A stretch of 35,159 nt of DNA from a virus: positions 1 to 35,159 of IMG/VR virus record IMGVR_UViG_3300014838_000044, one strand, 5' to 3'. Positions within the stretch are counted from its first letter, which is position 1; the number at the start of each line of letters is the position of its first letter. Shown here one piece after another: positions 2 through 33,269 of the stretch. The translations under genes and the position numbers were made by a program. The notes under the pieces are model-generated. The model made no database searches. It saw nothing but the letters and a program-made list of their open reading frames with translations, and had not been told where the DNA came from.

Positions 2-2641
2 GCAAATGAGGAAATGGAGGAGCTGGAAGCTACAGCGGACAAGTTTGGTATTTCATTTGAAAATTTAATCCCAATCAATCAGCGGTTTGCTGCGTTTGGC
101 TTAACGGTAAAGCAGACCGCTGAAATGATGCACTTGGCGATTGAAGCCGCTGCTGCGCTGAATGGCAGCGTAGAGAACACTGGGAGAGCTTTGGATCTTG
201 TTGTCTCTAGTGGCATTGTTAGCAGGAGAATGCTGCAAACCTTGGGAGTCAGCCTTGGTGACGTAGCGAAGGCGATGCACGTTACGGAAGACGAGGCTGC
301 TAAGGTATTCCGGTCCCTCGATATTGAGGACAGGGTTACAGCTATCCAAGCCGCCATGGAGAAATTTGCCGGTGCCGGGGAAAAGCAGGCAGAGGGGCTG
401 AGCGGCTCTTGGGCTAGATTCGGAAACGCGTTTAAGACTACGCTCAGGGAAAATGGTGATGCTTTAGCTCCCTTTGCAAAATGGCTCACTGATGCGGCAA
501 CTGCACTTCTCAACCTGGACAGCACCTGGCCTAACTTAGGAAATGGGTTAAAGGGAGCTGGTGACGCTGTAGTTTCCTTTGAAAAAAAGCTAACTAGCGT
601 GCAAGGGGTTCTTGGGGTTGTACTTGGTCTATATGAGAAGTTGTTTGTAGCTTCGACAAAGCCATTATTGCCACCCCAACCACCCGATAAATCTCTTGGT
701 GTATACCCTGAAGGGAAGTCAGAACAAAAAGCAGCGCAGGACAAGCTGATTGCCGACGCCGCCGCCGCCCTCGAACAGGAGCTTGCCGATACCAAAGAGA
801 AGATCAGGAAGGAGGCAGCATTAGCGGCGCTGGCACAGGAAAAGGAAAAATATGAGGATGAGGCAAAGCTTGGTAATCACTCTCAGGAGGAAGAGATTGC
901 CGCGCTCATCAACTTCAACAATCGGAAGGCGCAGATAGAGGTAGACAGCATCAACCGGCTCCAACACCTTCCGGGGCGCATGATTAACGGCGAGCCGGAA
1001 GCCACAACCAAAAGAAACTTGGATCTGGAAGCCGAGAAGAAAAAAGTTCAGCAGGATGCTCAGCTTGAGAACATTAAGATTGCTGCTAGAGAGCCCGAAG
1101 AACTACGTAAAATTCAGGAGTTGATAATTGTTCAGGAGGAAGAACATCAGAAAAACATTATCGACATCAAACGTCAGGGGGCTGAAAGCGCAATCAAGAC
1201 AGGTAGCATAACTGAAGAAGCAGGAATCCAACAGCTCAAAACCTTAAACCAGGAGGAGCTGGATGTTACGTTGGCATCGCTCGCTCAGCAGAAGAAGCTC
1301 AAGGGGAAGAACGCCGAGGACTTACAAAAGATTGATGAGTCAGAAACAGCAGCCAGGGACGCTAAGGATAAAAGAGATGCTGCGTTGGATGAGCAGTCCG
1401 CAGCATATCGGCTGTCACTTACTAACGATGTGGTAAAGGCCAACCAAATTATTGAGGATGCCGCCGACACGCATAGCCGTAACATGATTAGTGCTAGCCG
1501 TAAGATGAATGAGTCTTTGCTGAGCGACCATCGTCTTACAAATGCCGAGTGGTTAGACCAGGAACGAGCGCTAAACGCTCAGGAAGATGCTCTAGACAAA
1601 GCCGAGAATACGCGGCAGCTTGCAGAACTCAAGGCTAACCTGGATCGGAACCTGACTACACAGAAAGACTACCTATCCAAAAAAGCGGAGTTAGAGGCAA
1701 AGGGGCAGGGGCAGGCTGACAAGTCTACTGCGCGGGATCAGTCTCTCGATATCAAAGAGCAGGATGCTGCATGGAAAGAACTTGGGATGACCAGCACCAC
1801 AGCCCTTCAGAAGCAACTTGAGAGTGCTCAACTTGCCAGGGAACAGCTTAGGTTAGAGGGGGCGTCTACACAACAGCTTGGGGAGTCGCTGGAAAAGGTA
1901 TTGCAGGACCAGATAGCCCTTAACACGGCTCAGGGTAAAGGGTCAAACGACGAAATGATTGCGTTAGCCAATATCAAAATCCAAATGAAGTTTCAGGATG
2001 ACGCCCTGAACTCTACCGCCAAAGCATACACCGCTTTAACGGATGGACTGATGAACACCTTCGACACAATAGGTTCTAAGATCATGCAGTCCATCTCCCA
2101 CGCTAAGAACTTCGGGGATGCCATGAAACAGATTGGCAACAGCATTAAAGATGAACTCCTTGGAGCCATCGGCAAGGCGTTTGACGAACTAATCAAAGGT
2201 TTTATCGCCAACCTGCTCATTGTGAAGAGTGCTCAGGCGGCAGCAGCTACAGCGAGTATATCCACGTCTGCCTCGGAAGGCGCAGCTGCCGCATTTGCTT
2301 CTGTTATGGAAGCAGTACCCTACCCTGCCAACCTTATCCTCGCTCCCCAGATCGCCGCCTATACTTTGGCTGCTATTGAAGCTTTCAACATTGCGGCGTT
2401 TGAAACTGGTGGCGACATTAGAAGAACTCAGATTGCTATGGTTCACGCCGGTGAAACTGTTTTGTCTGCTGGTCAGACATCCAAAATGGGTGCCATGATC
2501 GACAACGGAGAGCTTAGCGCCAAAGGCAGCGACCGGGGTGGGGATACCCACATTCACATCAACGGCGCAACCAAGAGTCTGATGGACGAAGTTTGGAACT
2601 ACGGGGTAAAACAAGGCAGGCGCTCTGGCGTGTCCTGGTAG
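2..2641 (+). CDS. tail tape-measure protein, 5' truncated
   Basis: Probable tail tape-measure protein, which sets tail length and lies inside the tail tube. The frame is open to the window edge, so the ATG at 14 is probably internal and the N-terminus is missing. More than 875 residues are visible: a helical N-terminal part with hydrophobic stretches, a long Lys/Glu/Gln-rich coiled-coil middle (about residues 235-650), a hydrophobic Ala-rich stretch near 740-800, and a C-terminal segment with AMVHAGETVLSAGQ and THIHINGA. The pattern of an aromatic-glycine turn followed by H-A-G-E-x-V is common at the C-termini of phage tape-measure proteins. It is followed by the large tail genes, as expected for siphophages. 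Confidence 0.85.
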   Translation, partial: ANEEMEELEATADKFGISFENLIPINQRFAAFGLTVKQTAEMMHLAIEAAAALNGSVENTGRALDLVVSSGIVSRRMLQTLGVSLGDVAKAMHVTEDEAAKVFRSLDIEDRVTAIQAAMEKFAGAGEKQAEGLSGSWARFGNAFKTTLRENGDALAPFAKWLTDAATALLNLDSTWPNLGNGLKGAGDAVVSFEKKLTSVQGVLGVVLGLYEKLFVASTKPLLPPQPPDKSLGVYPEGKSEQKAAQDKLIADAAAALEQELADTKEKIRKEAALAALAQEKEKYEDEAKLGNHSQEEEIAALINFNNRKAQIEVDSINRLQHLPGRMINGEPEATTKRNLDLEAEKKKVQQDAQLENIKIAAREPEELRKIQELIIVQEEEHQKNIIDIKRQGAESAIKTGSITEEAGIQQLKTLNQEELDVTLASLAQQKKLKGKNAEDLQKIDESETAARDAKDKRDAALDEQSAAYRLSLTNDVVKANQIIEDAADTHSRNMISASRKMNESLLSDHRLTNAEWLDQERALNAQEDALDKAENTRQLAELKANLDRNLTTQKDYLSKKAELEAKGQGQADKSTARDQSLDIKEQDAAWKELGMTSTTALQKQLESAQLAREQLRLEGASTQQLGESLEKVLQDQIALNTAQGKGSNDEMIALANIKIQMKFQDDALNSTAKAYTALTDGLMNTFDTIGSKIMQSISHAKNFGDAMKQIGNSIKDELLGAIGKAFDELIKGFIANLLIVKSAQAAAATASISTSASEGAAAAFASVMEAVPYPANLILAPQIAAYTLAAIEAFNIAAFETGGDIRRTQIAMVHAGETVLSAGQTSKMGAMIDNGELSAKGSDRGGDTHIHINGATKSLMDEVWNYGVKQGRRSGVSW

Positions 2642-2644
2642 CGA

Positions 2645-2699
2645 GGTGGTGTAAAACCATCATCCAGCCCCTTCCGATTGATCCTAGGGCTCCGCAGGC
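2645..2699 (+). repeat. dispersed repeat, copy 1
   Basis: This element starts three bases after the tape-measure stop codon. It has a GGTGGT-gtaaa-ACCATC palindrome (2645-2661) followed by a conserved tail containing GATTGATCCTAGGGCTCCGC (2675-2694). Closely related copies lie at 17641-17696 (- strand) and 29649-29706 (+ strand). Copies 1 and 3 match over nearly the whole length, including ATTGATCCTAGGGCTCCG. It fills most of the 78-base gap before the next gene. The function is unknown. Confidence 0.7.
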
Positions 2700-2719
2700 G
2701 GCAATAAACCTACATTCCA

Positions 2720-5700
2720 ATGGGATATAAACCTACTCCAGCCAACGCACACGCGCTAACGATCTGTTTGGGCTATGTCAACACCCCTACGATTGGTGGC
2801 AGTCCACCGGCCCCAATTACCAACACCGGCTGCAATTTGATTGGTACGGCGTTTGCGATTGGGACCGGCCCCCCGGCCCCTGGGTTCACCCTTACAGCCA
2901 ATGACGTTGGGAATGTAATTATGGTGATGCAAGCCGGGGTGGGGGCTCCCGGCAGTGCCGCCCCCCTTTGGACGACGATTGCTACAGTAACAAGCGCAAC
3001 TTCGGGTACAACCACCGACGCGGCAATCAACAATGTTTCCCTTCAGCAAGCCATCATCTACAGGCCGCTAGTATCAACAAATACTTGGTACAACGGAGCC
3101 TTTGTGATGATGGGCTCCATTCACTATGACAGCAGCTTGACCACCAAGACCAGCTTTACGTTTCGCGTGCATAGCCCTAACGGGAGCTTTACGCCTGTTC
3201 CCGGTCAGCCTGTCCTTGCTTACCAAAATCAGGGGACTAACCTTGGGCCTTACAGTGGGGCAACCAACTACGCAATAAACTCTCAAGTATCTTACTACGG
3301 GCAGCAGTTCATTTCCCTGCAAAATGGTAATTACGGAAACACGCCAGTCTCAGGGACTTCCACGGCTTACTGGGCAACTCTTGACGTATTCGGCGGCATG
3401 ATCCAGCAGGCCAAACCCAGCAATGTAGTCGCTACCACCGTCATCGAAACCGATTGCGAATGTGTTTCCTGGGATATTCTTTTGACGCGAGCGGTGATTT
3501 CACTCCGCAGTCAGGGGAATCCCACTCGTGTTGATGGGTTTCAAGGTGATGCTTCTACAAAATCATGGGATCTGGCTTATGTTCCAATCACTGTTACCAA
3601 TGTGTCAGAGGTAAGTGAAAGCACGGTAACCATCAGCGGTTCAACAGTCACCAAGCTTAGCGGGCATGACTTCACCGATGTAGCTGTAGCGGATAACGTA
3701 ATCATAAATAGTGAGCCCTTCGTAGTAAATTCCATCATCGACGCGAATCATCTGACGCTGACCACCACTCCAGGAATGGGGGCAGGGCTGTTTACAATGA
3801 CTGGAACCTCTTGCAATTCAGGGACGGTTAATACAGGGTCTTATGCTTCACTGGTGTTCACGGGTTTCGTAGTTGGGGCAAGTGGAGACAACTTCTCCTC
3901 TATCCCCGCAGGTAACAGCATTTATGTAAATAATGCAACTGGCAATTCGTTGTCTACTCCTGCCGTGATTACAACAGTCCAAACTTCTGACAGCTTTTAT
4001 TCAACTTCGCCTCTCGGCGACAGGAACGGTGTTGGCTGGAGGGCTAACTATTTAATTGGAGGTGCTACGCTTCCGACCTTTGCAGTGGAGGGAAGCTCAA
4101 GCGATGCTCAGTATTACTGGACACCCAATTCAAACAAGATAACCATGAACGCTTCAGCGGCCCCGCTTGATTTGAACCGCACACTGCAAGTTACCTATAC
4201 CTATATCGGAGTTTCAAACTTTTACAATCAGCCGATGGGGGCTATTGCGTCAACTTTGATGACAGCTTTGCTGGCAGACGGTGTTTATGTAAATACAATC
4301 ACCGGCCCCACCATTACCAATATTGAGTTCTCCACTTCGGACTCCTTCGATACAGCACTCTCAGCACTGTGTCAGTTTGTAAGCAATGGATCTGTGAACT
4401 ACTGGTACTACATGGACGCTCGACGCGGAATTCACATCGAGGAGCAGGCTGTTACCAAAATAGCTCCTTGGAACATCAATGTTTCCGATACCAGTGATGG
4501 GAACGTGCTGCTTGAGGTGAGCAACACTCAGACCACTGAGAAGATGGCGAACGCAGCTTTGGTCACAACGAGCAACACGCTTGGTAGCAATAGTATTTCA
4601 GAGAACATCATCTGTGGTGGGACTACGCGAACATTCAACACTACTTGGCCGATAGGTCAGTTGATAAAACTAACCTATACCCCTGTTTGGACTTACAACG
4701 CGCCACCGATTGACCTCCCGTTTGCATTGCTGAACTCTGGCATAATTGCGACTGGAGTTTCCTATGGTCCTGGGCTGCCTGTGCTTGGAGGGTTCTACTG
4801 GACTTCCAACCAGACATTGCTTACAGAAGACCTTGGAGGTATTGCTATACCCTCTGGCACTCTGACGATAACCTACTTGCCCATCATCTCTACAACGCAG
4901 GCTTACTACAACGCCCCTGCGATCTACGCCCGTCAAGCTATCGAAGGTGGTTCTGGTGAATACGACGTTAGCCAGAAGCCTCAGTCCAACGCGCCATTGT
5001 TGCAGACCCTGAATATATCCCAAGTGATAGCAGAGTACTTCTCGCAGTTGAGCGAGAGTGTTGAAATTCAGACATACCGCTACGGGCTGGTTTCCGGTCA
5101 AGGTATTACGATCAATCTTCCAGGGATTGCCGGGCCGGGAACTTACGTTGTTGATAACATCCAGATGAACGACCAGGACAACGTACTCCATTGGACGATC
5201 ACGGCAGTTCGCGGGGCAGCTATTGGGGACTGGAAGACGGCTTTCCGTGTGCTAACAGGAGCAGAGGCTATCACAACAATCGGCGGCGGTCAGAACACGG
5301 GCACTCCCCCGGCTTGGTTGCCCAACTTTGAAATTCCAGTTTCCGGGGATGTTGTGGGCATAGCCCCTGGTTTTGGAATCGCTCCAACGTACACGGTAGA
5401 CGGAGGAGGCAACCCGGTTGTCGGCATCGGCGTTTACGGCAACTCGCCTGACCCGGAATACGATGTTGTGGTTAAGGTGTGGCAAGAGCTTGTAAGCGGA
5501 GTTTGCAATCAGATTGGGATTGTTGCCAGTCTGGGCAACGGAACCGGAACGATTTCCTTCGGCAGTGTGGGTGCAACTGCTTTTACTGGCCGCACCATTA
5601 CAAAAACAGCGAACTACTACGGTAGTGTTGCCGCTGGCTTGCAGGGGATACCGGGCGAGCTGTCCATCGTTGATTTCACTGTTACGGCTGACAATGGAGC

Positions 5701-14403: not shown

Positions 14404-14881
14404 TTTAGCCGTTCAAGCGCTGCTTACAGAAGAAGGTGGGGCCTACGTTCCTAACGATAACGGACGCGGGCCTTCGAGATGGGGGGTCACTCTGATGACC
14501 TATCAAGCGTTTTACCCATCGGCAGTTGCTAAGGACATTTTTGGTTTAACACCAGAGGAAGCAATCGCTTTCTACCGTGCTGCATACTGGGTTTTCTACC
14601 AGTTGGGATTGATTGACGATCAAGACGTAGCTACCAAGATGCTGGATCTGACTGTTAACGTCGGACGCCCTGCAATTTGCTGGCTTCAGAATGCTGCTGG
14701 CGTAGTTGAAGACGGGATGCTCGGCCCTGTAACTGCCGCTGCGGTCAACGCCATGGTTCCGCAACAAGTTTTGACAGTGGTGCGGAAAGCAGGGGCAACC
14801 TACTACAACAATCTGGCTGTGCAAGACCCGGCAAAGTATGGGCCGGATTTGGCTGGCTGGCTAGCGCGTCTCGCCAAGTAA
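14390..14881 (+). CDS. endolysin, glycoside hydrolase 108-type
   Basis: A 163-aa peptidoglycan hydrolase. The N-terminal EEGGAYVPNDNGRGPSRWG (E14/E15) is the GH108 signature, with the catalytic Glu in the E-G-G motif, as in phage N-acetylmuramidases. The C-terminal half (about residues 80-163, including NAAGVVEDGMLGPVT) looks like the PG_binding_3 domain that usually accompanies GH108. There is no signal peptide, consistent with release through a holin. The SD is GAAGGAGTAAAG. Its last 21 bases overlap the end of the opposite-strand helicase gene, marking the junction between the two transcription blocks. Confidence 0.9.
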   Translation: MSVFNLAVQALLTEEGGAYVPNDNGRGPSRWGVTLMTYQAFYPSAVAKDIFGLTPEEAIAFYRAAYWVFYQLGLIDDQDVATKMLDLTVNVGRPAICWLQNAAGVVEDGMLGPVTAAAVNAMVPQQVLTVVRKAGATYYNNLAVQDPAKYGPDLAGWLARLAK

Positions 14882-16294
14882 GTCCAGCACACGGGAGGCG
14901 TCTCCCACCCAGGTGTCATGCACAACATGAGTGCAGACTTCCTGGAGTGCCTTCGCCCTCATTTTTGCCGCCCATGAATGTTGGTCGGCAATGTCAATGT
15001 ACCAGAGAACTTTATTCCCCGATTTCCTTACCCCTCTACCGTACCGCTGAATTGCCCCGTCTCTCCCCGGCATTGCGCTGGCGTCGATGATCATATCGAC
15101 GGTCTGCACGTCCACACCTTTTCCAAACACCTTAGAAGCCAAAATGAGCGGAAGCTCCCTGGCATCCATAGCTTTCATGGCGGCAAGCCTGTCTTCAGAT
15201 TCGCGCTCCCCGCTAAGAGCCTGATGTGGGATGTCTTCCAGCCGCTTTGACAGCACGCGCAGATGAACCCGGCGCTCGACCAGCACCACTACCCTGCGTC
15301 CGCGTTTCACGCCCTCCCGTGCCAGAGCTTCAACACAATCATTGCGTGCCCGGTTGAGTGCAATATGGTAGCGGTACTCAGCTTCCCGCGTTCCTCGTTT
15401 GATCCACTTACCTTCTGAAAGATATCCTGGCGCGGTGTCGCATAGGGGGTCATTGAAAGCAAGATGGCAAACTATGCCTGTGCTTAGATGGCCCTCCTCG
15501 ACACCCTCCTGAATTGTGTACTCAAACAGCACCGGCCCGGCTAAGGCGATAGCAGGAATGTGTATGTGCGGCTTTCGCATCTGAAGTGTAGCAGTCAAGC
15601 CATACACAGCCTGCGGCCTGATCTGAGTAACGATGTCGATGTTACGCTTGTTCAGAGCTACATGAATTTCGTCAATGATCAAAACGTTCAGGGACTTAAA
15701 CCATTTCTGGAATGCAGGGTTGCGACGGTGCTTGCTTAGCGTCTGAATTGTTGCGACCGAAACCCGCTTCGGGCGAAACACGCTGTGACCAACAACTCCA
15801 ATCTCCCCCCCGACAACACTTTCAATTTGCCTGCGGGACTGTTCCAGCAAAGTTAGCTCATCACAGATGAACACTGCGGTGCCACGCAGTCGTTTGAGAA
15901 ACCCACCTGCTAACTTAGTCTTACCGGCCCCAGTCGCTGCAAGGACAATGCCGCCCGTATTGCTGGCGGCTATCATGGCTTCGATGGCTTCCTGCTGGTA
16001 GTCTCGAAGGTCGTCGTCGCTCGCCGGGTTAAAAGCCAGTGACCTGCGCGTATCAGTAACAGCAAAGCGAAATCCGGCCTCCTCCAGACTGGCGTGTTTA
16101 TCCAGCCACAGACCAGTTGCTACCCGGCCCCGCGCCATCATGTTTTTCACACCATCCCAACCAGGGGACTTGAAGTTGGCACTAGGGTCTTTGTAGGCGA
16201 AGTATGGTTTGATTTCAACCTGGGTATCCGGTGAACAGATGAAAGTAGTCCATCGGTTGCAGACTTGGACCGGGATTGTGGCTAAAGGTGGCAT
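14861..16294 (-). CDS. SF2 DNA helicase, UvsW-like
   Basis: A 477-aa superfamily 2 helicase. Visible motifs: a Q-type RDYQ (97-100), Walker A AATGAGKT (119-126), Walker B DEIH (208-211), motif III TAT (234-236), and in the second RecA lobe KVFGKGVDVQTVD and QRYGRGVRKSG (motifs V and VI, with the arginine fingers). T4 UvsW and RadD/XPB-like relatives unwind branched DNA and R-loops, which fits the recombination genes upstream. The start ATG at 16292-16294 shares a base with the stop of a possible upstream frame (TAATG). A TATAAT on the coding strand lies nine bases before the ATG. Confidence 0.9.
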   Translation of the reverse strand: MPPLATIPVQVCNRWTTFICSPDTQVEIKPYFAYKDPSANFKSPGWDGVKNMMARGRVATGLWLDKHASLEEAGFRFAVTDTRRSLAFNPASDDDLRDYQQEAIEAMIAASNTGGIVLAATGAGKTKLAGGFLKRLRGTAVFICDELTLLEQSRRQIESVVGGEIGVVGHSVFRPKRVSVATIQTLSKHRRNPAFQKWFKSLNVLIIDEIHVALNKRNIDIVTQIRPQAVYGLTATLQMRKPHIHIPAIALAGPVLFEYTIQEGVEEGHLSTGIVCHLAFNDPLCDTAPGYLSEGKWIKRGTREAEYRYHIALNRARNDCVEALAREGVKRGRRVVVLVERRVHLRVLSKRLEDIPHQALSGERESEDRLAAMKAMDARELPLILASKVFGKGVDVQTVDMIIDASAMPGRDGAIQRYGRGVRKSGNKVLWYIDIADQHSWAAKMRAKALQEVCTHVVHDTWVGDASRVLDLLGETR

Positions 16295-17552: not shown

Positions 17553-17624
17553 TTTTTACTCTCCTATTCCCATCTGCGTTTTATCCGGGCTGTGGACCGG
17601 CTTCCTAGCTGGAAGGTCGCATTA
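17553..17624 (-). promoter_or_regulatory. repeated leader, copy 1
   Basis: The untranslated leader of the 16968-17552 gene. Reading the - strand it has TAATGC, then a CTTCC/GGAAG hairpin, then CCGG-tccacagc-CCGG (17585-17600), GATAAAACGCAGA and the SD AGGAGAG. Related leaders precede the genes starting at 22131 and 23314. The shared order suggests a common control element, such as a promoter or an RNA-binding site. Confidence 0.55.
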
Positions 17625-17640
17625 GAATGGTCGAATTTGG

Positions 17641-20297: not shown

Positions 20298-20537
20298 TTA
20301 TACGCCTTTTACTTCTACGGTTCGCTTGCCAATTGTCCAAGCGTTGCGACCGGCGTCCCACCGCACGTAGCAGAAGGCACCCGGCCCCTCTTCCACAATG
20401 AAGAAGCTTCGGTCCTTCGCTATGGACACCAGCGGGAGTACAGCACGGTGACCACTAGAGTGGATGACTACCTTACGGTTAAGTTTCTTCACAGGTTGCC
20501 TCTTTCTGGTCCAGACTTGGGACTGAACCTTGTACAT
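20298..20537 (-). CDS. small hypothetical protein
   Basis: A 79-aa protein if it starts at ATG 20537. That ATG is only three bases after a perfect hairpin and has no SD between. An in-frame GTG at 20492 has a better-spaced SD (AGAGGCAACCT) and would give 64 aa. The core (HRAVLPLVSIAKDRSFFIVE and AFCYVRWDAGRNAWTIG) looks like a small beta protein. No family recognised. Confidence 0.55.
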   Translation of the reverse strand: MYKVQSQVWTRKRQPVKKLNRKVVIHSSGHRAVLPLVSIAKDRSFFIVEEGPGAFCYVRWDAGRNAWTIGKRTVEVKGV

Positions 20538-20540
20538 TAA

Positions 20541-20560
20541 ACAGCGGGTTTCCCCGCTGT
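20541..20560 (-). terminator. perfect hairpin with GAAA tetraloop
   Basis: ACAGCGGG-gaaa-CCCGCTGT on the - strand: eight perfect pairs and a GNRA loop. It lies between the 20574-20849 gene and the ATG at 20537. It could end the upstream transcript or block the ribosome site of the next gene. Confidence 0.6.
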
Positions 20561-20573
20561 CCCCTCTGTATTT

Positions 20574-22131: not shown

Positions 22132-22193
22132 TAGGTTTGCTCTCCTTTGTCCTCTGCATTTATCCGGGCTTGGAACCGGCCATGGCTGCATTA
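22132..22193 (-). promoter_or_regulatory. repeated leader, copy 2
   Basis: Leader of the 21091-22131 gene. The - strand reads TAATGCAGCCA, then CCGG-ttccaagc-CCGG (22164-22179), GATAAATGCAGAGGA and AAGGAGAGCAAA. It matches the leaders at 17553-17624 and 23315-23377. Confidence 0.6.
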
Positions 22194-22195
22194 CA

Positions 22196-22216
22196 ACCGG
22201 CCCCCAAAGGGCCGGT
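22196..22216 (-). terminator. hairpin after the DUF2924-like gene
   Basis: ACCGGCCC / GGGCCGGT, eight perfect pairs around a five-base loop, starting seven bases after the stop of the 22223-23314 gene. The following sequence TGTAATG has only a weak T stretch. Confidence 0.6.
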
Positions 22217-23314: not shown

Positions 23315-23377
23315 AAAATTTGCTCTCCTTCCCTCTGCAATCTCTACACGGGCTTGGGACCGTCGTTGGCTGCATTA
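23315..23377 (-). promoter_or_regulatory. repeated leader, copy 3
   Basis: Leader of the DUF2924-like gene. The - strand reads TAATGCAGCCA, then ACGG-tcccaagc-CCGT (23348-23363), then TTGCAGAGGGAAGGAGAGCAAA. The outer pair differs from the other two copies on both arms (A-T instead of C-G), so the hairpin is kept by a compensating change. Confidence 0.6.
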
Positions 23378-23385
23378 AAGGAAAT

Positions 23386-24711: not shown

Positions 24712-25212
24712 TCACAGGCTTGCAAACTTTCGTCTTAACCACTCAGCTAAAAGCAAGGCGTCAGCTCGGCCATCCATGGTATCCACACGCCCCCGGTCTT
24801 TGCGAAATGAAGCTGTGGGAAATAGATGGCTGGCACACACGATGGATGCCGACTTGTCGCTGCCGCTGGTGATGCCCATTTCACGTTTCCACTTTGCAGG
24901 CTCGATTTTTTCATACGGCATTCGTAGGGCGGCAAGAATGCCAAGCCACAAGCCGAAGCCGCTCCCCATCGAAAACATACTCGTAACACCCTGACCCGGC
25001 ATTGCGTGTACGTTCTCAATCCCCACCAACCGCACATTTTTAGAGAGCCTTTCCAGGATTGACACCATTTGGGACTCTACGTATACACGCTTATGGCCCT
25101 TCGCTTTTTTGACGGTGAGGGTTGGCGTATCATCGAGGGCAACCATATTTCCCTTATGATCAATCACAGCTACTGCACCGGACAGACCGGGGTCGATTCC
25201 GACGTAGATCAT
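24712..25212 (-). CDS. RuvC-like Holliday junction resolvase
   Basis: A 166-aa RNase H-fold nuclease of the RuvC type. Motif I is VGIDPGLSGAVAV (D7), motif II is LVGIENVHAMPGQG (E66), and the C-terminal acidic motif is DGRADALLLAEW (D147, D151). The middle KIEPAKWKREMGI (about 102-114) is typical of phage RuvC proteins. It would cut four-way junctions made by the recombination genes upstream, before packaging. Its ATG overlaps the stop of the HicA-like gene (ATGA), so it is translationally coupled. Confidence 0.85.
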   Translation of the reverse strand: MIYVGIDPGLSGAVAVIDHKGNMVALDDTPTLTVKKAKGHKRVYVESQMVSILERLSKNVRLVGIENVHAMPGQGVTSMFSMGSGFGLWLGILAALRMPYEKIEPAKWKREMGITSGSDKSASIVCASHLFPTASFRKDRGRVDTMDGRADALLLAEWLRRKFASL

Positions 25213-25834: not shown

Positions 25835-26055
25835 TCTTTGTCTCTTTCAATTGCAGCAATCGCCGCATCCCAATGTTTTTTAGTAAGCACAAAAGTGTGC
25901 TGCCCATTTTTGGCGTTGGTTACTATCACAGCAGGCTCAAGATAGGAGTGCAGTGACAGTGTTCCAAATATAGCGTGGCGAGCTTTCGCATAGGCCACAA
26001 ATGGTTCCAGCGCCATCCTAAGCTTTTCGATCTCGGTTGCTTCCGGCTTCGTCAT
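25831..26055 (-). CDS. small hypothetical protein
   Basis: A 74-aa soluble protein joined to both neighbours by overlapping stop and start codons (TAATG upstream, ATGA downstream). The pattern TEIEKLRMALEPFVAYAKAR, then strands AVIVTNAK and HTFVLTKKHW and a C-terminal helix AAIAAIERDKE, is one often seen in short phage proteins of unknown function. No motif recognised. Confidence 0.75.
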   Translation of the reverse strand: MTKPEATEIEKLRMALEPFVAYAKARHAIFGTLSLHSYLEPAVIVTNAKNGQHTFVLTKKHWDAAIAAIERDKE

Positions 26056-26417
26056 TATTTGCAGGGCTCCTTAGCAAGCCACCGGCTACGGAGCCACTTG
26101 GCAATGTAGTCAGGTAGGCTCTTAACCAGCGGAAACTCTTTGTCGCCCGTTACACCGCTGGGCTCAAAAGCCATCAACTCCAGCTTCTCAACAATTTTCC
26201 CCAAGGGTACACCGTGCTGCAACGACAGAGAAATCATCACCGCTAGAGCGTTGCACAGGCCGCGTTCAAAGCTACCCACCCGCTTGGAAACCAGAAACAC
26301 TTCACCCGGCGTCCCATCTTCAAGAAGACCAACGGTGGCATAGCATTTGAAGTCCCCGATGCGGAATTTTTTAGTCACAGCAGGCCGTTCTTCCGGCATC
26401 TTTTTGCGAGCTGGCAT
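26055..26417 (-). CDS. free-standing TSCPD domain, as in the C-terminus of NrdJ
   Basis: A 120-aa protein that aligns by eye with the C-terminal domain of class II (B12-dependent) ribonucleotide reductases: FKCYATVGLLEDGTPGEVFL, then RGLCNALAVMISLSLQHGVP and FEPSGVTGDKEF with YIAKWL. In NrdJ this domain lies at the end of a large catalytic chain. Here it stands alone with no reductase gene in view. It may bind a phage or host reductase, or nucleotide or cobalamin, or have been reused. The start overlaps the upstream stop (TAATG). Confidence 0.75.
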   Translation of the reverse strand: MPARKKMPEERPAVTKKFRIGDFKCYATVGLLEDGTPGEVFLVSKRVGSFERGLCNALAVMISLSLQHGVPLGKIVEKLELMAFEPSGVTGDKEFPLVKSLPDYIAKWLRSRWLAKEPCK

Positions 26418-26568: not shown

Positions 26569-29385
26569 TCAAATCTCCCTTACAGTAGTTATACCCTTTT
26601 CCTTTACGCACTCAAGCCGGTAGTCGGGTTCCAAAGCACCCAATATTTGTTCAGAGTGAGCAATTACCATCACGTGACCGAAACGCTCCACGACGGAATT
26701 CAGGCCCTGCGCAAAGGCCACGGCATTGACCGGATCGAGCCCATTAGCGGGTTCGTCCAAGATCAGTAGATTGTGCCGCACCAAAGCGTCACGAAAAGCA
26801 AAGGCAGCAATCAATGCAGCCAGCCGGGTTTCCCCCTCTGACTGATCCTTAATTGTTTTGCCACCGTGAAGATTATGAACGTGAACATCAATATCGCCAT
26901 CGGCAATATCGAACTCAATGTTGATTTCACCTTTAGAAAATATCTGGCTGTAGCGGGAGGCAGCAGCATTAAGGTGCGGGGCCGCAATGGAGCACAAGTA
27001 GGCTGGCAACCCATTCCGGCTTACGGTGACACCGCAAAACTCCACGAACCGCTTTTCATTCTTGATGGCTTCAATAGCCTGCTCATGAACAGACTGCACA
27101 TTCAAAAGGTCGGCAACCCGCCGGTCCCTTTGTTCCAATGTTGCCTTCAACTGTGCTCGAACGACTGCCTGATCATGAAGCTTAGCTATACTCTGTCTAA
27201 GCTCATCCAGTTCTGCCTGCACCGTGCGATTCTCTGACCGCCACTCTTGGATATTGTCCAGACGCTTCTGCCGTTCGGCTCGATTGGCATTCCCTAAACT
27301 CTCAGCATAATCGGCGGCGGCAATGTAGGTTTGAATCTGCCCTTCTAAAAGAATTGTAAAATCCTCCAATGCAGACGCCAGCACCTTGCCACCGCAGGTT
27401 GGACATTTCCCCTTCCCCTTCAACCCAATCGCAGCATCCTGTTGCTTTCGTAATTCACTGGCGGCGCTTTCAGCCCGAATCCGTTGATCCAGCAGAGCCT
27501 CAAACTTCTTTTGGTTTTCCTTGAGTACTGGTTCAAGATTGGCAATGTCCTGGTCGTTGGCGCGAATATGATTTTCACACAGAGCTAAATGTGCCATCAT
27601 AGCTGATTGAGATTTAGGATCTTCCTTTGGCAGTTCCGCTAGCGACTTGTACACCTCGGCCCGCTCTTTCAAAGTTTCTGCCAGCACCCGCTTGGTGGCC
27701 TCCAGTTCACCCTCTGTTTCGTCAATCACACGCTGGATGCGGAGCACCGCTTTGCGGATAGATTCATGCGCGGCTAGAAACCGATCAAGGCCAAGCAACC
27801 GGCTAAATAGCTCCTTGCGTTCTTTCTCCGTGCCAAATACCGACCCGATTTCCCGCTGCCCAATATAGACAGAGTTTGTAAGCACATCCCAAGTTAGATT
27901 GGTGATGGATTCAATCATCCGCTGGGTGGTGTTCTTATCGCCCATCGAAATCTCTTTGCCATCACGCCATACCTGCACACTAGCGGGGCGGCGACAGCGG
28001 ATAATAAGCAATTCGCTGCCGTCAGGGAGGATGGTGATAGACCGAATACTGGCTGTCTTCTTGGAGTTCAGCCGCGCCCAGCCATCGTCAACTTGCCCCT
28101 TGAACGTCTTGCCGGTAAGCGGAAGGAATGGCAGCGTCACTAAGCTCGACTTCCCACTCCCATTACTTATATCTCCCTGGTCACTATCCCAATCCAAATT
28201 CCGCCCGGTAACCACGGTAAGCCCTTTGCGGTCCAAGGCTAACTTGACGTGCTCGAAACATAGGGTGTTGGTAGCTTCAAAAGATTTGAACCGCAACCCC
28301 TGTACACCCATCAATCCAATATGCGGTAGATACTCTTTAAGGTAGTCAACCACCTGATCGGCGTCGGCCCCCTCTGGCACTATAGAGCGGGAAAGATAGT
28401 CACGCAGAATATCTTCGTCGGACCCTTTGATATCAAGGGTACCTGTGACCGGCGCGGCTTTCTGAAAATCAGGAATAATATGAAGGATAGCCCCCTTATA
28501 TTTAGCAGCAACGCGAGCGCGGACTTCCTCAATTTCCTTGACGGGATCTTTATAGACAGGCACTTTGAACCGGACGTGTGCTTTATCCCAGGACGCGGGC
28601 GCGTGAAATCCGGGGGCAGTCGGGTCATACCAACTAGGTATGGTAGATGGAATTCGCGTAGTGGAGATCACCCGGCGCTTTTCCTCACCAGTAATCCTTT
28701 CGGGGATGCTTAAAATGAGAAAAGACTTTTCCTGGTTTGCCTCTCCCCAATCCATACAAAATGGGGAGCCAGCATAGTGGATGTTTGGCTTGATGGTCTG
28801 AGCTTCATGGATGTGCCCACCGATGCAAATGTCATAGTTAGCAGCGCAGATGTCATCCGCCGTAAATGCTTTGCCTTTGGAGTAGCCACCTTTACATCCG
28901 CGTATTTCGTTGTGAAACACCAGGATGCGCAGCCCCGGCTGTTGTAACTCCCAGGACCGATGAAACGCTTCCACCTGTCGGTTATGGTCGCGGAAGTAAG
29001 GAACCATGTGCAGAAAAACCCAGTATGGAAGCTTTACTACGTCAACATCCTCAAAGATTGTAGCGCCTGCTGCCTCAAGCGTAGGCAGAAGGGTAGGGAC
29101 GTTATCTTGAGTAGCAATGTTGTCATGGTTACCGCGAAGGACGTAGAAAGCTGCTGCGCCTTCTCCATACCGTTGACAGGCTGTAAGAATTTCTGTGGTG
29201 GCACGGACGAGGAAGTTGGTTACCCTAACATCAACCGGGTTGAAGGCGTCTTTGACATCACCCAAATGAACAACGTGGGAAATATTCTCCCTGTAGATTA
29301 GCGCGAGTACTTGCGCGAGCGTCTGTTCGCAGCGGTCCAGGTTGCCAAGCGCAGCTTGCCAATCACCTGTAAATAGTATTTTCAT
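26569..29385 (-). CDS. single-chain Mre11-Rad50 (SbcD-SbcC) nuclease-ATPase fusion
   Basis: A 938-aa protein joining two subunits that are normally separate. Residues 1 to about 350 are an Mre11/SbcD phosphoesterase: GDWQ (D8; the usual His is Q10), HLGDVKD (D43, D46), RGNHDN (N86, H87), FHNE (H158), GGHIH (H191, H193). Residues about 360 onward are a Rad50/SbcC ATPase: Walker A SNGSGKSS (408-415), a zinc hook CPTC near 661 within short coiled coils, signature QSEGE, Walker B LLILDEPANGLDP, and an IAHS switch. T4 gp47/gp46 is the separate-gene equivalent and makes single-strand tails for recombination. It is coupled to the HTH gene by ATGA. Confidence 0.9.
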   Translation of the reverse strand: MKILFTGDWQAALGNLDRCEQTLAQVLALIYRENISHVVHLGDVKDAFNPVDVRVTNFLVRATTEILTACQRYGEGAAAFYVLRGNHDNIATQDNVPTLLPTLEAAGATIFEDVDVVKLPYWVFLHMVPYFRDHNRQVEAFHRSWELQQPGLRILVFHNEIRGCKGGYSKGKAFTADDICAANYDICIGGHIHEAQTIKPNIHYAGSPFCMDWGEANQEKSFLILSIPERITGEEKRRVISTTRIPSTIPSWYDPTAPGFHAPASWDKAHVRFKVPVYKDPVKEIEEVRARVAAKYKGAILHIIPDFQKAAPVTGTLDIKGSDEDILRDYLSRSIVPEGADADQVVDYLKEYLPHIGLMGVQGLRFKSFEATNTLCFEHVKLALDRKGLTVVTGRNLDWDSDQGDISNGSGKSSLVTLPFLPLTGKTFKGQVDDGWARLNSKKTASIRSITILPDGSELLIIRCRRPASVQVWRDGKEISMGDKNTTQRMIESITNLTWDVLTNSVYIGQREIGSVFGTEKERKELFSRLLGLDRFLAAHESIRKAVLRIQRVIDETEGELEATKRVLAETLKERAEVYKSLAELPKEDPKSQSAMMAHLALCENHIRANDQDIANLEPVLKENQKKFEALLDQRIRAESAASELRKQQDAAIGLKGKGKCPTCGGKVLASALEDFTILLEGQIQTYIAAADYAESLGNANRAERQKRLDNIQEWRSENRTVQAELDELRQSIAKLHDQAVVRAQLKATLEQRDRRVADLLNVQSVHEQAIEAIKNEKRFVEFCGVTVSRNGLPAYLCSIAAPHLNAAASRYSQIFSKGEINIEFDIADGDIDVHVHNLHGGKTIKDQSEGETRLAALIAAFAFRDALVRHNLLILDEPANGLDPVNAVAFAQGLNSVVERFGHVMVIAHSEQILGALEPDYRLECVKEKGITTVREI

Positions 29386-30065: not shown

Positions 30066-31061
30066 TCAGGACTGCCCCCCTCTATATCGCTTGCAAATTT
30101 TGTACAGTGTACCCAACAACCAAGGCATCATCGAGCTTTCATCGAATGGTGAATTACTCAAGTCGAGTAGCCCGGCAGCGGCTCGTTCCTGGCCGGGTGT
30201 GGACGCCTCCCGAATTAAACATCCGCGCAGCCAACCTGCCATGGAAGCGCGAATCCACCGGGCTTCATCTGGCTGGGCATCCTTCATAATGCCTATCGCT
30301 GTTTTCCAAGTACCCGCTGTAACCGCTTTGCACAATCGGAGTGTGTCGATAGTTACTCCGTCAACGCCAGATACAGCTTCATCTGCGCTTGTGCCTGCCG
30401 CATACTTCTCAAGAGACTGTAGTAGCAACGCGGGGGCGTTTAGCTGCATCAGATGGCAAGCTTCAAACAGGTCAGCCAGTGGACGAGTTATCCCTGCCTT
30501 CGCTGCTTGTGCTATGAGAAAATTCTCAGCAGCGGTAATGCCCAGCCCCTTAAGCTGGTAGCTGGTACACCGGCGTCTTAAGGTGAGCAGAAGCTTAGTT
30601 GGTTCAGTGGTGCAGACGATCCAGATAGTTGACGCTGGTGGCTCCTCAAACGGGGTAAGAAGCATATTCTGCGCGGCGTTGGAAATCTTCTGCGCCTCAT
30701 CCAAAATAATCACCCGCTTACCATCAGGGTTAATCGGCTTGTACCGGCTCTGCTGGACTACCCGGCTAAGCTCATCCACCCCGCTTACGTCGCTGGCGTT
30801 AATTTCATGGATGGCAAAGTCAGATCGTTTCCTCCAGCAGTCGATGCAAGGATCACCCCACAATGTTTGGTGTTCACATTGATAGGCAATGCTCAGAATC
30901 CTAGCAATAGTTGTTTTCCCACTACCAGACGGCCCGTGAAACATCCAAGCCCGTGGGGGTCGCTTAGCAACGTGGTTACGAATTGCTTTAACAGCGGCTT
31001 CTTGCCCATACAAGTCTGACAGCCTTCTTGGACGTAGTTCTAAGCTAAGTATTTGGCTCAT
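30066..31061 (-). CDS. clamp-loader AAA+ ATPase (DnaX/RFC-like)
   Basis: A 331-aa AAA+ protein of the DNA polymerase III gamma/tau type. Visible: Walker A FHGPSGSGKTTIAR (about 41-54), Cys cluster C62...PCIDC (C72, C75) of the DnaX zinc module, Walker B VIILDEAQKI (about 117-126), a sensor segment WIVCTTEPTKLL, and RRRC in place of the canonical S-R-C. Such proteins load the sliding clamp on primed DNA. The clamp and polymerase genes are not in this window. It starts 65 bases after the RecA-like gene. Confidence 0.85.
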   Translation of the reverse strand: MSQILSLELRPRRLSDLYGQEAAVKAIRNHVAKRPPRAWMFHGPSGSGKTTIARILSIAYQCEHQTLWGDPCIDCWRKRSDFAIHEINASDVSGVDELSRVVQQSRYKPINPDGKRVIILDEAQKISNAAQNMLLTPFEEPPASTIWIVCTTEPTKLLLTLRRRCTSYQLKGLGITAAENFLIAQAAKAGITRPLADLFEACHLMQLNAPALLLQSLEKYAAGTSADEAVSGVDGVTIDTLRLCKAVTAGTWKTAIGIMKDAQPDEARWIRASMAGWLRGCLIREASTPGQERAAAGLLDLSNSPFDESSMMPWLLGTLYKICKRYRGGQS

Positions 31062-31126: not shown

Positions 31127-32083
31127 TTAATACTCTTCTTCTTTTTCTTTCGAGCAAGCTATTTTGGCATTGACGAATTCAATCGGACCTTTGAACATGA
31201 TGCGATATCCAATAGCTGACTTCTCCACCCCACCACATTTATTTTTGTTGTTCTCAAGCAGCCCGGTAATACCAATCACCTCGCCTCGCTGCACAATCCT
31301 GCTGCCCTTCACACGCCGGGCACGCCCCTGAATATGAGCGTAGAAACGGATGGCATTGCCCCCTGTGGCATACGTCTTAGTCATGCCTGAACGTAGCTGA
31401 TTAACCAGATAGATGATGGCGTTACTAGTCTGCGCCAGAGAAACCCAACGGCGCATGAGCCTACCGACGAGCTTAGGGTGTTCCATATCTGTCTTGTAGC
31501 TTCCTCCCAGCCCGGCAGCAGAGTCGCCTTCAGTAAGCAGCGCGGCGATAGAGTCCACAACTATCATGTACTTAGGTTTTCTAAGCACGTCAATACAGGT
31601 TTCCACCTCCGATAGAAGCTCTTGAGCCGATGATAGCCGTGACTCACGTTCCTTTCCAAACTTACCTACAAACGGTTGGATCAGGATAAGTTTCTCAGGG
31701 TCAAGGCCGCATGTCGGTGACTTACTGCCACCGCAATTGGAGCAGTCGGCTTCCTTCACCAAGCCTGTCCCGCTACATTTAGGACAGGCTTGCATCTTTC
31801 GCATCAAAGCCCATACAGGGTCGAATGAGTTTTCCAGGTCGCACCAGATTACCACCGCGCCATCGTGCTGGGCTAACGCAGCGATAGCCATAGTTAAGGC
31901 ACTTTTCCCTACAGACTCCCAGCCAGATATCTCTGTAATCTTTCCATAGGCAATGCCTTTATCCCGGTGGCCCAAAACACCGTTCAGATTCGGCATACCC
32001 GTGTTAAGCCACTGCGTCGGTTCCCACTTTAGAGCAACATGCCCTAAAGTCTGCCGAATCTGATCCAATGTTTTGCTGGTCAT
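31127..32083 (-). CDS. RecA-like recombinase with inserted zinc cluster
   Basis: A 318-aa RecA/UvsX-type strand-exchange ATPase. Walker A is GWESVGKSA (54-62), the catalytic-type Glu is in WCDLENSFD (E84), Walker B is YMIVVDSIAAL (172-182), and YLVNQLRSGM and YATGGNAIRFYAH follow, as in RecA. Between the Glu segment and Walker B there is an extra C-x2-C...C-x2-C motif (C100, C103, C114, C117, with C125 nearby), like a zinc ribbon or DnaJ-type finger. Bacterial RecA lacks this. It would form filaments on single-stranded DNA made by the Mre11-Rad50 fusion. The SD is AAGGTAGGAAAAACC. Confidence 0.88.
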   Translation of the reverse strand: MTSKTLDQIRQTLGHVALKWEPTQWLNTGMPNLNGVLGHRDKGIAYGKITEISGWESVGKSALTMAIAALAQHDGAVVIWCDLENSFDPVWALMRKMQACPKCSGTGLVKEADCSNCGGSKSPTCGLDPEKLILIQPFVGKFGKERESRLSSAQELLSEVETCIDVLRKPKYMIVVDSIAALLTEGDSAAGLGGSYKTDMEHPKLVGRLMRRWVSLAQTSNAIIYLVNQLRSGMTKTYATGGNAIRFYAHIQGRARRVKGSRIVQRGEVIGITGLLENNKNKCGGVEKSAIGYRIMFKGPIEFVNAKIACSKEKEEEY

Positions 32084-32091
32084 GGTTTTTC

Positions 32092-33111
32092 CTACCTTCG
32101 TCTGGGAGGCGGGGCCGGTGCCGGGGTAGACTTCTTAGCGGGAGGCGCAGCCGTCCTTCCCGCAGGGGCCGGTACGGGCTTCCTTACGGGGGCCGGTACA
32201 GGGCGTCTGGGCGGGGGAGGCGGCGCAGGTTCATCTTCGGGTTCCGGTTCAGCCTCTTCCACTACATACTCCTCCTGCTCCGGTTCCGGGTCTGCTGCAT
32301 ACTCCTCCTGATCAGGCTCAACGCCTTCAGAAAGTACTTCGTCAGCAACAGCAGTGTCTTCTTCAGATGTGTTCTCAGCCTCATCGTCAACCAGGACCTC
32401 TGCTTCTGCCTCTGCTTCTGCCTCTACCTCATCCCGGCGCGGACGGCCAAAATAAGCCGACTTCTGATCTTCCTCGTCATAGGCTGATATCAAGCTATCC
32501 AGAGATTTCACAGCTGCCAGGATTGCAGCAGGGGCACTGGTGGGCGCGTCATCAGTATCAATCTCCGGGTAGCGCCGCTTCATCCCCTCGCCGGTGGCTG
32601 TTACGTTGATGTTATAACCCTTCACCGGGTCAATGATGTCTTTCTTGCCGTTGAGAATCCGCGATTTGATACGGATGCCCAAAGACAGCTGCCCACCAAG
32701 GACCATTTTCCACGGCTTAGGCAGGGCAAACTTTTGCGTGTCGGGGTCGATCCTGCTGGCGTTCACGATAAACTGATTCTTGGCCGTAAGACGTTCGGCA
32801 ATAGCAGCCTTCTTCGCGTCACCAGATGCTTCCAGCTCAGGAATTTTTACATCACAAAGCCAGCATGGACCCATACCGTCTTCATTTTTACCGCAAGGAA
32901 GGATAGCTTCGTCAGGGCCGATCCCGAAATGCACACGCACCTCCCGGCAGGGCTTATGCAGAATTCCTTTGGGGCTAACCTTCCCGTCAGGTGTCAGGTC
33001 TTTTTTGTCGGGAAGGATTCTAACGGTGTTAATTCCGACAGCCAGTGACAAGCTATGACCGGCCATCTGCTCTTTCAGGCGTTCTCTCTCTTGGGACTTC
33101 CAATCGCTCAT
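32092..33111 (-). CDS. gp32-like single-stranded DNA-binding protein
   Basis: A 339-aa protein starting at ATG 33111 (SD AAGGAGTGTTCAAA; a GTG nine bases upstream is less likely). The first 200 residues resemble gp32-type phage SSBs: basic/aromatic strands and a zinc-like PCGKNEDGMGPCWLC, with H68 upstream. Residues about 230-295 are strongly acidic, as in gp32 tails that recruit partners. Unusually, a further Pro/Ala/Arg-rich basic tail (PAPVRKPVPAPAG...) of about 45 residues follows. It lies directly upstream of the recombinase gene, as expected for a cooperating pair. Confidence 0.75.
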   Translation of the reverse strand: MSDWKSQERERLKEQMAGHSLSLAVGINTVRILPDKKDLTPDGKVSPKGILHKPCREVRVHFGIGPDEAILPCGKNEDGMGPCWLCDVKIPELEASGDAKKAAIAERLTAKNQFIVNASRIDPDTQKFALPKPWKMVLGGQLSLGIRIKSRILNGKKDIIDPVKGYNINVTATGEGMKRRYPEIDTDDAPTSAPAAILAAVKSLDSLISAYDEEDQKSAYFGRPRRDEVEAEAEAEAEVLVDDEAENTSEEDTAVADEVLSEGVEPDQEEYAADPEPEQEEYVVEEAEPEPEDEPAPPPPPRRPVPAPVRKPVPAPAGRTAAPPAKKSTPAPAPPPRRR

Positions 33112-33269
33112 TTTGAACACTCCTTATTTTTGGGACTGCTGTTTGACTCCAGATTCAGCATCGCAGCCAGACTCCGACGCTTCTCCTGGAAGTAGGTTTT
33201 GACAACTGACCGGGCTATGATCCAGACCAGGGCCAGTGCAATTACGATTAGTATAACGGCTTGGATCAT
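33108..33269 (-). CDS. small membrane protein (53 aa)
   Basis: A 53-aa gene filling the gap between the 33276 gene and the SSB gene. ATG 33269 has an SD (CCCAGGAGAATAG), and its stop overlaps the SSB start (ATGA). The product begins MIQAVILIVIALALVWIIAR, a single membrane helix, followed by a basic amphipathic segment SVVKTYFQEKRRSLAAMLNL. The position suggests coupling with SSB production. Function unknown; it may anchor replication proteins at the membrane. Confidence 0.65.
   Translation of the reverse strand: MIQAVILIVIALALVWIIARSVVKTYFQEKRRSLAAMLNLESNSSPKNKECSK

Follow-up and report, generated by a model that had tools for sequence, protein, structure and literature searches.

Does the viral DNA analysed here (hereafter the window, a linear record of 35,159 bases that is probably a fragment) encode a true single-chain Mre11-Rad50, and can such a protein act as a nuclease when glutamine takes the place of a histidine in its first metal-binding motif? 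The gene is present in a single copy, as an uninterrupted minus-strand frame of 938 codons in which Mre11 comes first and both domain sets share one frame (Table 1); stops occur throughout the plus strand across 26569-29385. The protein matches Pfam Metallophos at residues 1-194 (6.6e-11), PHROG SbcD at residues 1-353 (1e-26) and PHROG SbcC at residues 362-937 (2e-54), so the first-pass annotation, which had placed the Mre11 and Rad50 motif sets in one 938-aa chain, was right on this point.

Table 1. Features of the fusion gene and of its neighbourhood in the window. Residues are those of the fusion protein; neighbour counts refer to 29 clade loci with limited flanks.
Feature	Positions	Strand	Basis or remark
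Fused Mre11-Rad50 (SbcD-SbcC) gene	26569..29385	-	938 aa, coordinates including stop codon
Mre11 nuclease (calcineurin-like) domain, residues 1-226	28708..29385	-	Pfam match and SbcD alignment
Motif I, D8-W9-Q10 (most relatives have D-x-H)	29356..29364	-	alignment
Motif II, G42-D43-V44-K45 (Lys45 is the clade marker)	29251..29262	-	alignment
Motif III, G85-N86-H87-D88	29122..29133	-	SbcD alignment
Ligand H158	28912..28914	-	SbcD alignment
Motif G190-H191-I192-H193	28807..28818	-	SbcD alignment
Mre11 capping domain and C-terminal helices, residues 227-353	28327..28707	-	SbcD alignment and model
Junction/linker, residues 351-362	28300..28335	-	low model confidence
Rad50 N-terminal head lobe with Walker A (SNGSGKSS), residues 363-533	27787..28299	-	motifs and model
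Coiled-coil hairpin, residues 534-787	27025..27786	-	model and arm measurement
Zinc hook C661-P-T-C664	27394..27405	-	motif
Rad50 C-terminal head lobe, residues 788-938 (signature SEGE, Walker B, H-loop)	26572..27024	-	motifs and model
Clamp loader ATPase	30066..31061	-	adjoins fusion in 28/29 clade loci
UvsX/RecA-like recombinase	31127..32083	-	in 27/29 clade loci
Single-strand DNA-binding protein (SSB)	32092..33120	-	in 21/29 clade loci
RuvC-like Holliday junction resolvase	24712..25212	-	same strand as fusion
UvsW-like helicase	14861..16294	-	same strand as fusion

The first-pass annotation had named as evidence against a fusion a stop or frameshift missed at residues 340-365, or homologues that are always two genes, and had proposed a search for further phage SbcD-SbcC fusions. 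Relatives were found in 29 other IMG/VR contigs, 28 of them carrying the same one-frame fusion, which gives with the window a clade of 30 contigs and 29 single frames; this count includes near-duplicates and comes from scans independent of both fusion state and motif I. The junction aligns among the relatives without a stop, and no intergenic-like sequence was found there. An assembly or sequencing artefact, in which a lost stop or a frameshift joined two adjacent genes, is therefore extremely improbable, even though a case of that kind can be cited: the 1009-aa fused exonuclease annotated in Listeria phage LMTA-57 (L002, 2899-5928; KJ591605.1, 59521-62550) exists only through one base missing relative to A511, where it takes the form of two genes. 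That difference is likely a sequence error or a strain indel, and we rejected LMTA-57 as a precedent for a fusion. A free Rad50 produced from an internal start is not expected either, since Met359, close to where the Rad50 half begins, lacks conservation among the relatives and no Shine-Dalgarno-like stretch was found before it.

The relatives include a 974-aa protein with 44% identity to the window fusion (L015), contigs from alignment-based scans of viral contigs (L112, L116, L117-L120) and 22 more from a scan with a single pattern in the Mre11 half. No relatives were found by single-protein pattern scans with the window fusion in viral and genome contigs, by a scan with a RecA query, or among GTDB genome contigs. 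The window clade forms a single branch in both the Rad50 tree (99/95) and the Mre11 tree (99). Further Mre11-Rad50 fusions, about 1000-1340 aa long and of phage or prophage origin (L072, L077, L084, L094, L104, L111 and L148), lie outside it; the comparison in the Rad50 tree covers the first six of these, all from IMG/VR. The fused state needs five changes on that tree, a count that does not give the direction of change. Within the window clade the fusion is shared by descent, separately from the other phage fusions sampled.

Both halves are complete. When aligned with 11 SbcDs that phages and plasmids encode as separate proteins, residues 1-353 correspond to an entire SbcD as far as the natural C-terminus; D8, D43, N86, H87, H158, H191 and H193 are retained and Gln10 replaces His, so that the canonical D-x-H of motif I reads D8-W-Q10 in the window fusion. 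All elements of the split ABC head (Walker A, signature, Walker B and H-loop) are present in residues 363-938. The coil arms from head to hook measure 125 and 128 aa vs 121 and 126 aa in T4 gp46; the coils were described in the first-pass annotation as short for the family, but since their arms match those of T4 they are of ordinary length for a phage. An AlphaFold2 model (mean pLDDT 89, pTM 0.54) places the nuclease and capping domains first, followed by two helices, an ill-defined linker at about 351-362, and the Rad50 head with its coiled-coil hairpin. Model residues 1-306 superpose on E. coli SbcD (Z about 26) and residues 362-938 on Rad50 (Z up to 29.6, 3qf7), and the pTM does not support any relative placement of the two halves.

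One relative is no longer a single frame. In L112 (5001-8627) the break follows residue 225 and so separates the nuclease from the capping domain, not Mre11 from Rad50. The gap of about 860 bp is filled by four small ORFs: the first encodes a 78-aa helix-turn-helix regulator, and for the next three (72, 70 and 57 aa) no matches were found. Several ORFs overlap end to start, among them at the stop codon of the nuclease, which an ATG straddles, and at the GTG start of the downstream ORF; this last ORF (694 aa) contains the capping domain and Rad50. An intron was considered and rejected, as there is no Rfam intron match and the insert consists of the small ORFs. Because its tree neighbours are intact fusions, the split, known from this one contig, is most simply explained as a later insertion. 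A 1:1 ratio and a tether between nuclease and ATPase, as the first-pass annotation proposed, do follow from one chain, but L112, where the nuclease domain is an ORF of its own, suggests that the complex can do without the tether.

The glutamine of motif I, which the first-pass annotation had read as GDWQ, is confirmed (G7-D8-W9-Q10) and is shared by 27 of the 30 clade contigs. Lys45, in the GDxK45 of motif II, also marks the clade: it occurs in 29/30 clade contigs, whereas a dereplicated set of 67 other phage SbcDs has no example of it. The three members with His10 (L117, L123 and L137) are nested in the clade and require three changes on the tree. When eight members were available, a strict coupling of Gln10 and Lys45 seemed real, since L117, then the sole His10 member, is also without Lys45; it was dropped with L123 and L137, which have His10 together with Lys45. 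Outside the clade, glutamine at position 10 was found in two of the 67 other SbcDs (L054 and L056), non-fused and with intact motifs, and in the distant 1166-aa fusion L148.

The loss of the canonical D-x-H residue in most of the clade could mean that Gln10 inactivated the nuclease, so that the Mre11 half would now serve Rad50 solely as structure or to hold DNA. We consider a dead nuclease very unlikely because the remaining metal ligands are all retained: across the 29 aligned clade members, at 25-48% identity, none of the seven further active-site positions examined varies, and both the nested His10 members and the non-fused SbcDs with glutamine argue in the same direction. It is also rather unlikely, to a lesser degree, that Gln10 and Lys45 together reshape the catalytic site (to one metal with the lysine, for example) and give it a different metal use or cutting preference; the presence of Lys45 in nearly the whole clade but in none of the 67 other SbcDs and the joint absence of both residues in L117 would agree with such a site, while the two members combining His10 with Lys45 do not. 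For the same reading in its wider form, an Mre11 catalytic subclass defined by D-x-Q plus GD-x-K with metal site 1 rebuilt around Gln/Lys, we have a similarly low expectation. Judging from the sequences, the clade nuclease is most likely active and accepts either Gln or His at one of its ligand positions, Gln10 most likely being a weaker metal ligand that stands in for His. The residue at position 10 serves D-x-H enzymes as a metal ligand, and a glutamine there could lower or change the activity.

The conserved neighbourhood of SSB, UvsX and clamp-loader genes points to end resection for recombination-dependent replication, in which T4 gp46/gp47 function (PMC3175470). Main use of the protein in the degradation of host DNA for nucleotide supply, rather than in phage end resection, seems quite unlikely: T4 46/47 are annotated as needed for host-DNA degradation as well as for recombination, but the linkage to UvsX, SSB and the clamp loader points first to replication and recombination, and the two roles are not exclusive. 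Taking everything together, we regard as likely an active one-chain Mre11-Rad50, equivalent to T4 gp47 plus gp46, which acts in recombination-linked end trimming and whose fused state is shared by descent. Two fused chains would dimerise through their Rad50 heads and Mre11 domains, with the coils paired by zinc hooks and ATP governing access to the nuclease; the complex would then trim or clip phage DNA ends, from which UvsX and SSB could start recombination-dependent replication and repair.

Other elements were observed around the fusion. Directly downstream of it lies a stand-alone TSCPD domain (26055-26417, minus strand), also present near the fusion in L113; some ribonucleotide reductases end in such a domain. 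The UvsX/RecA-like protein has at residues ~94-121, inside the RecA domain, a CPKC...CSNC segment that looks like a zinc finger of the DnaJ type (Pfam PF00684, E 1.7e-4, under its cut-off), and the same type of segment occurs in the RecA-like ORF of L112 (within 1845-3245). Four twister ribozyme matches lie between early genes on the minus strand (22146-22197, 23327-23381, 17566-17628 and 20511-20570), three of type P1 (E 7e-10 to 4e-8, under the gathering score) and one of type P5 (above it), and a further P5 match lies at 12200-12252 of L113, a related contig.

The first-pass annotation had given the nuclease and the ATPase as separate proteins in bacteria, archaea and T4, but they are not universally so, and the fusion as such is of a known kind: fusions were published in 2011 from Mimivirus, a Bacillus phage, plasmids, bacteria and eukaryotes, among them Mimivirus R555, Bacillus phage 0305phi8-36, C. 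kluyveri plasmids and a Deferribacter megaplasmid (Yoshida, Claverie and Ogata; PMC3175470). That work also argued from the T. maritima complex, where the Mre11 C-terminus is near the Rad50 N-terminus. The fusions named here, like that of the window, combine an N-terminal Mre11 and a C-terminal Rad50 in one chain and belong to mobile elements or viruses. R555 has a ligand change too, Asp for one His, but is much longer (1351 vs 938 aa), and 0305phi8-36, by its description, does not have the complete Rad50 and capping region of the window fusion (PMC3175470). The D-x-Q plus GD-x-K signature of the window clade is unmentioned for the 2011 fusions (PMC3175470).

Among two-gene systems, T4 gp47/gp46 and the SPO1-like SbcD/SbcC pairs (Listeria A511, Staphylococcus Twort and Bacillus SBSphiJ) have the same domains, recombination-gene neighbours and likely the same role, and the T4 coils are equally short; they differ in their separate genes, in the D-x-H of motif I and in sequence (~20-25% identity to the window fusion). 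E. coli SbcCD shares the nuclease/capping and ATPase head folds, but consists of two proteins, and its SbcD has D-x-H and GDVF. In the open literature, outside which most subscription papers fall, no later paper on the window clade or on a D-x-Q Mre11 was found. What is added to the known fusions is a large phage clade (~30 uncultivated phages), its active-site signature and the re-split gene of L112.

Mre11-Rad50 is a universal machine for DNA-end processing, whose assembly from two chains complicates studies of its mechanism. A natural single chain of ~930 aa with short coils would be handy for structural and single-molecule work. The clade also offers natural Gln/His variants at a metal ligand for probing metal use and, in L112, a naturally occurring form whose nuclease domain is set apart from the capping domain and Rad50.
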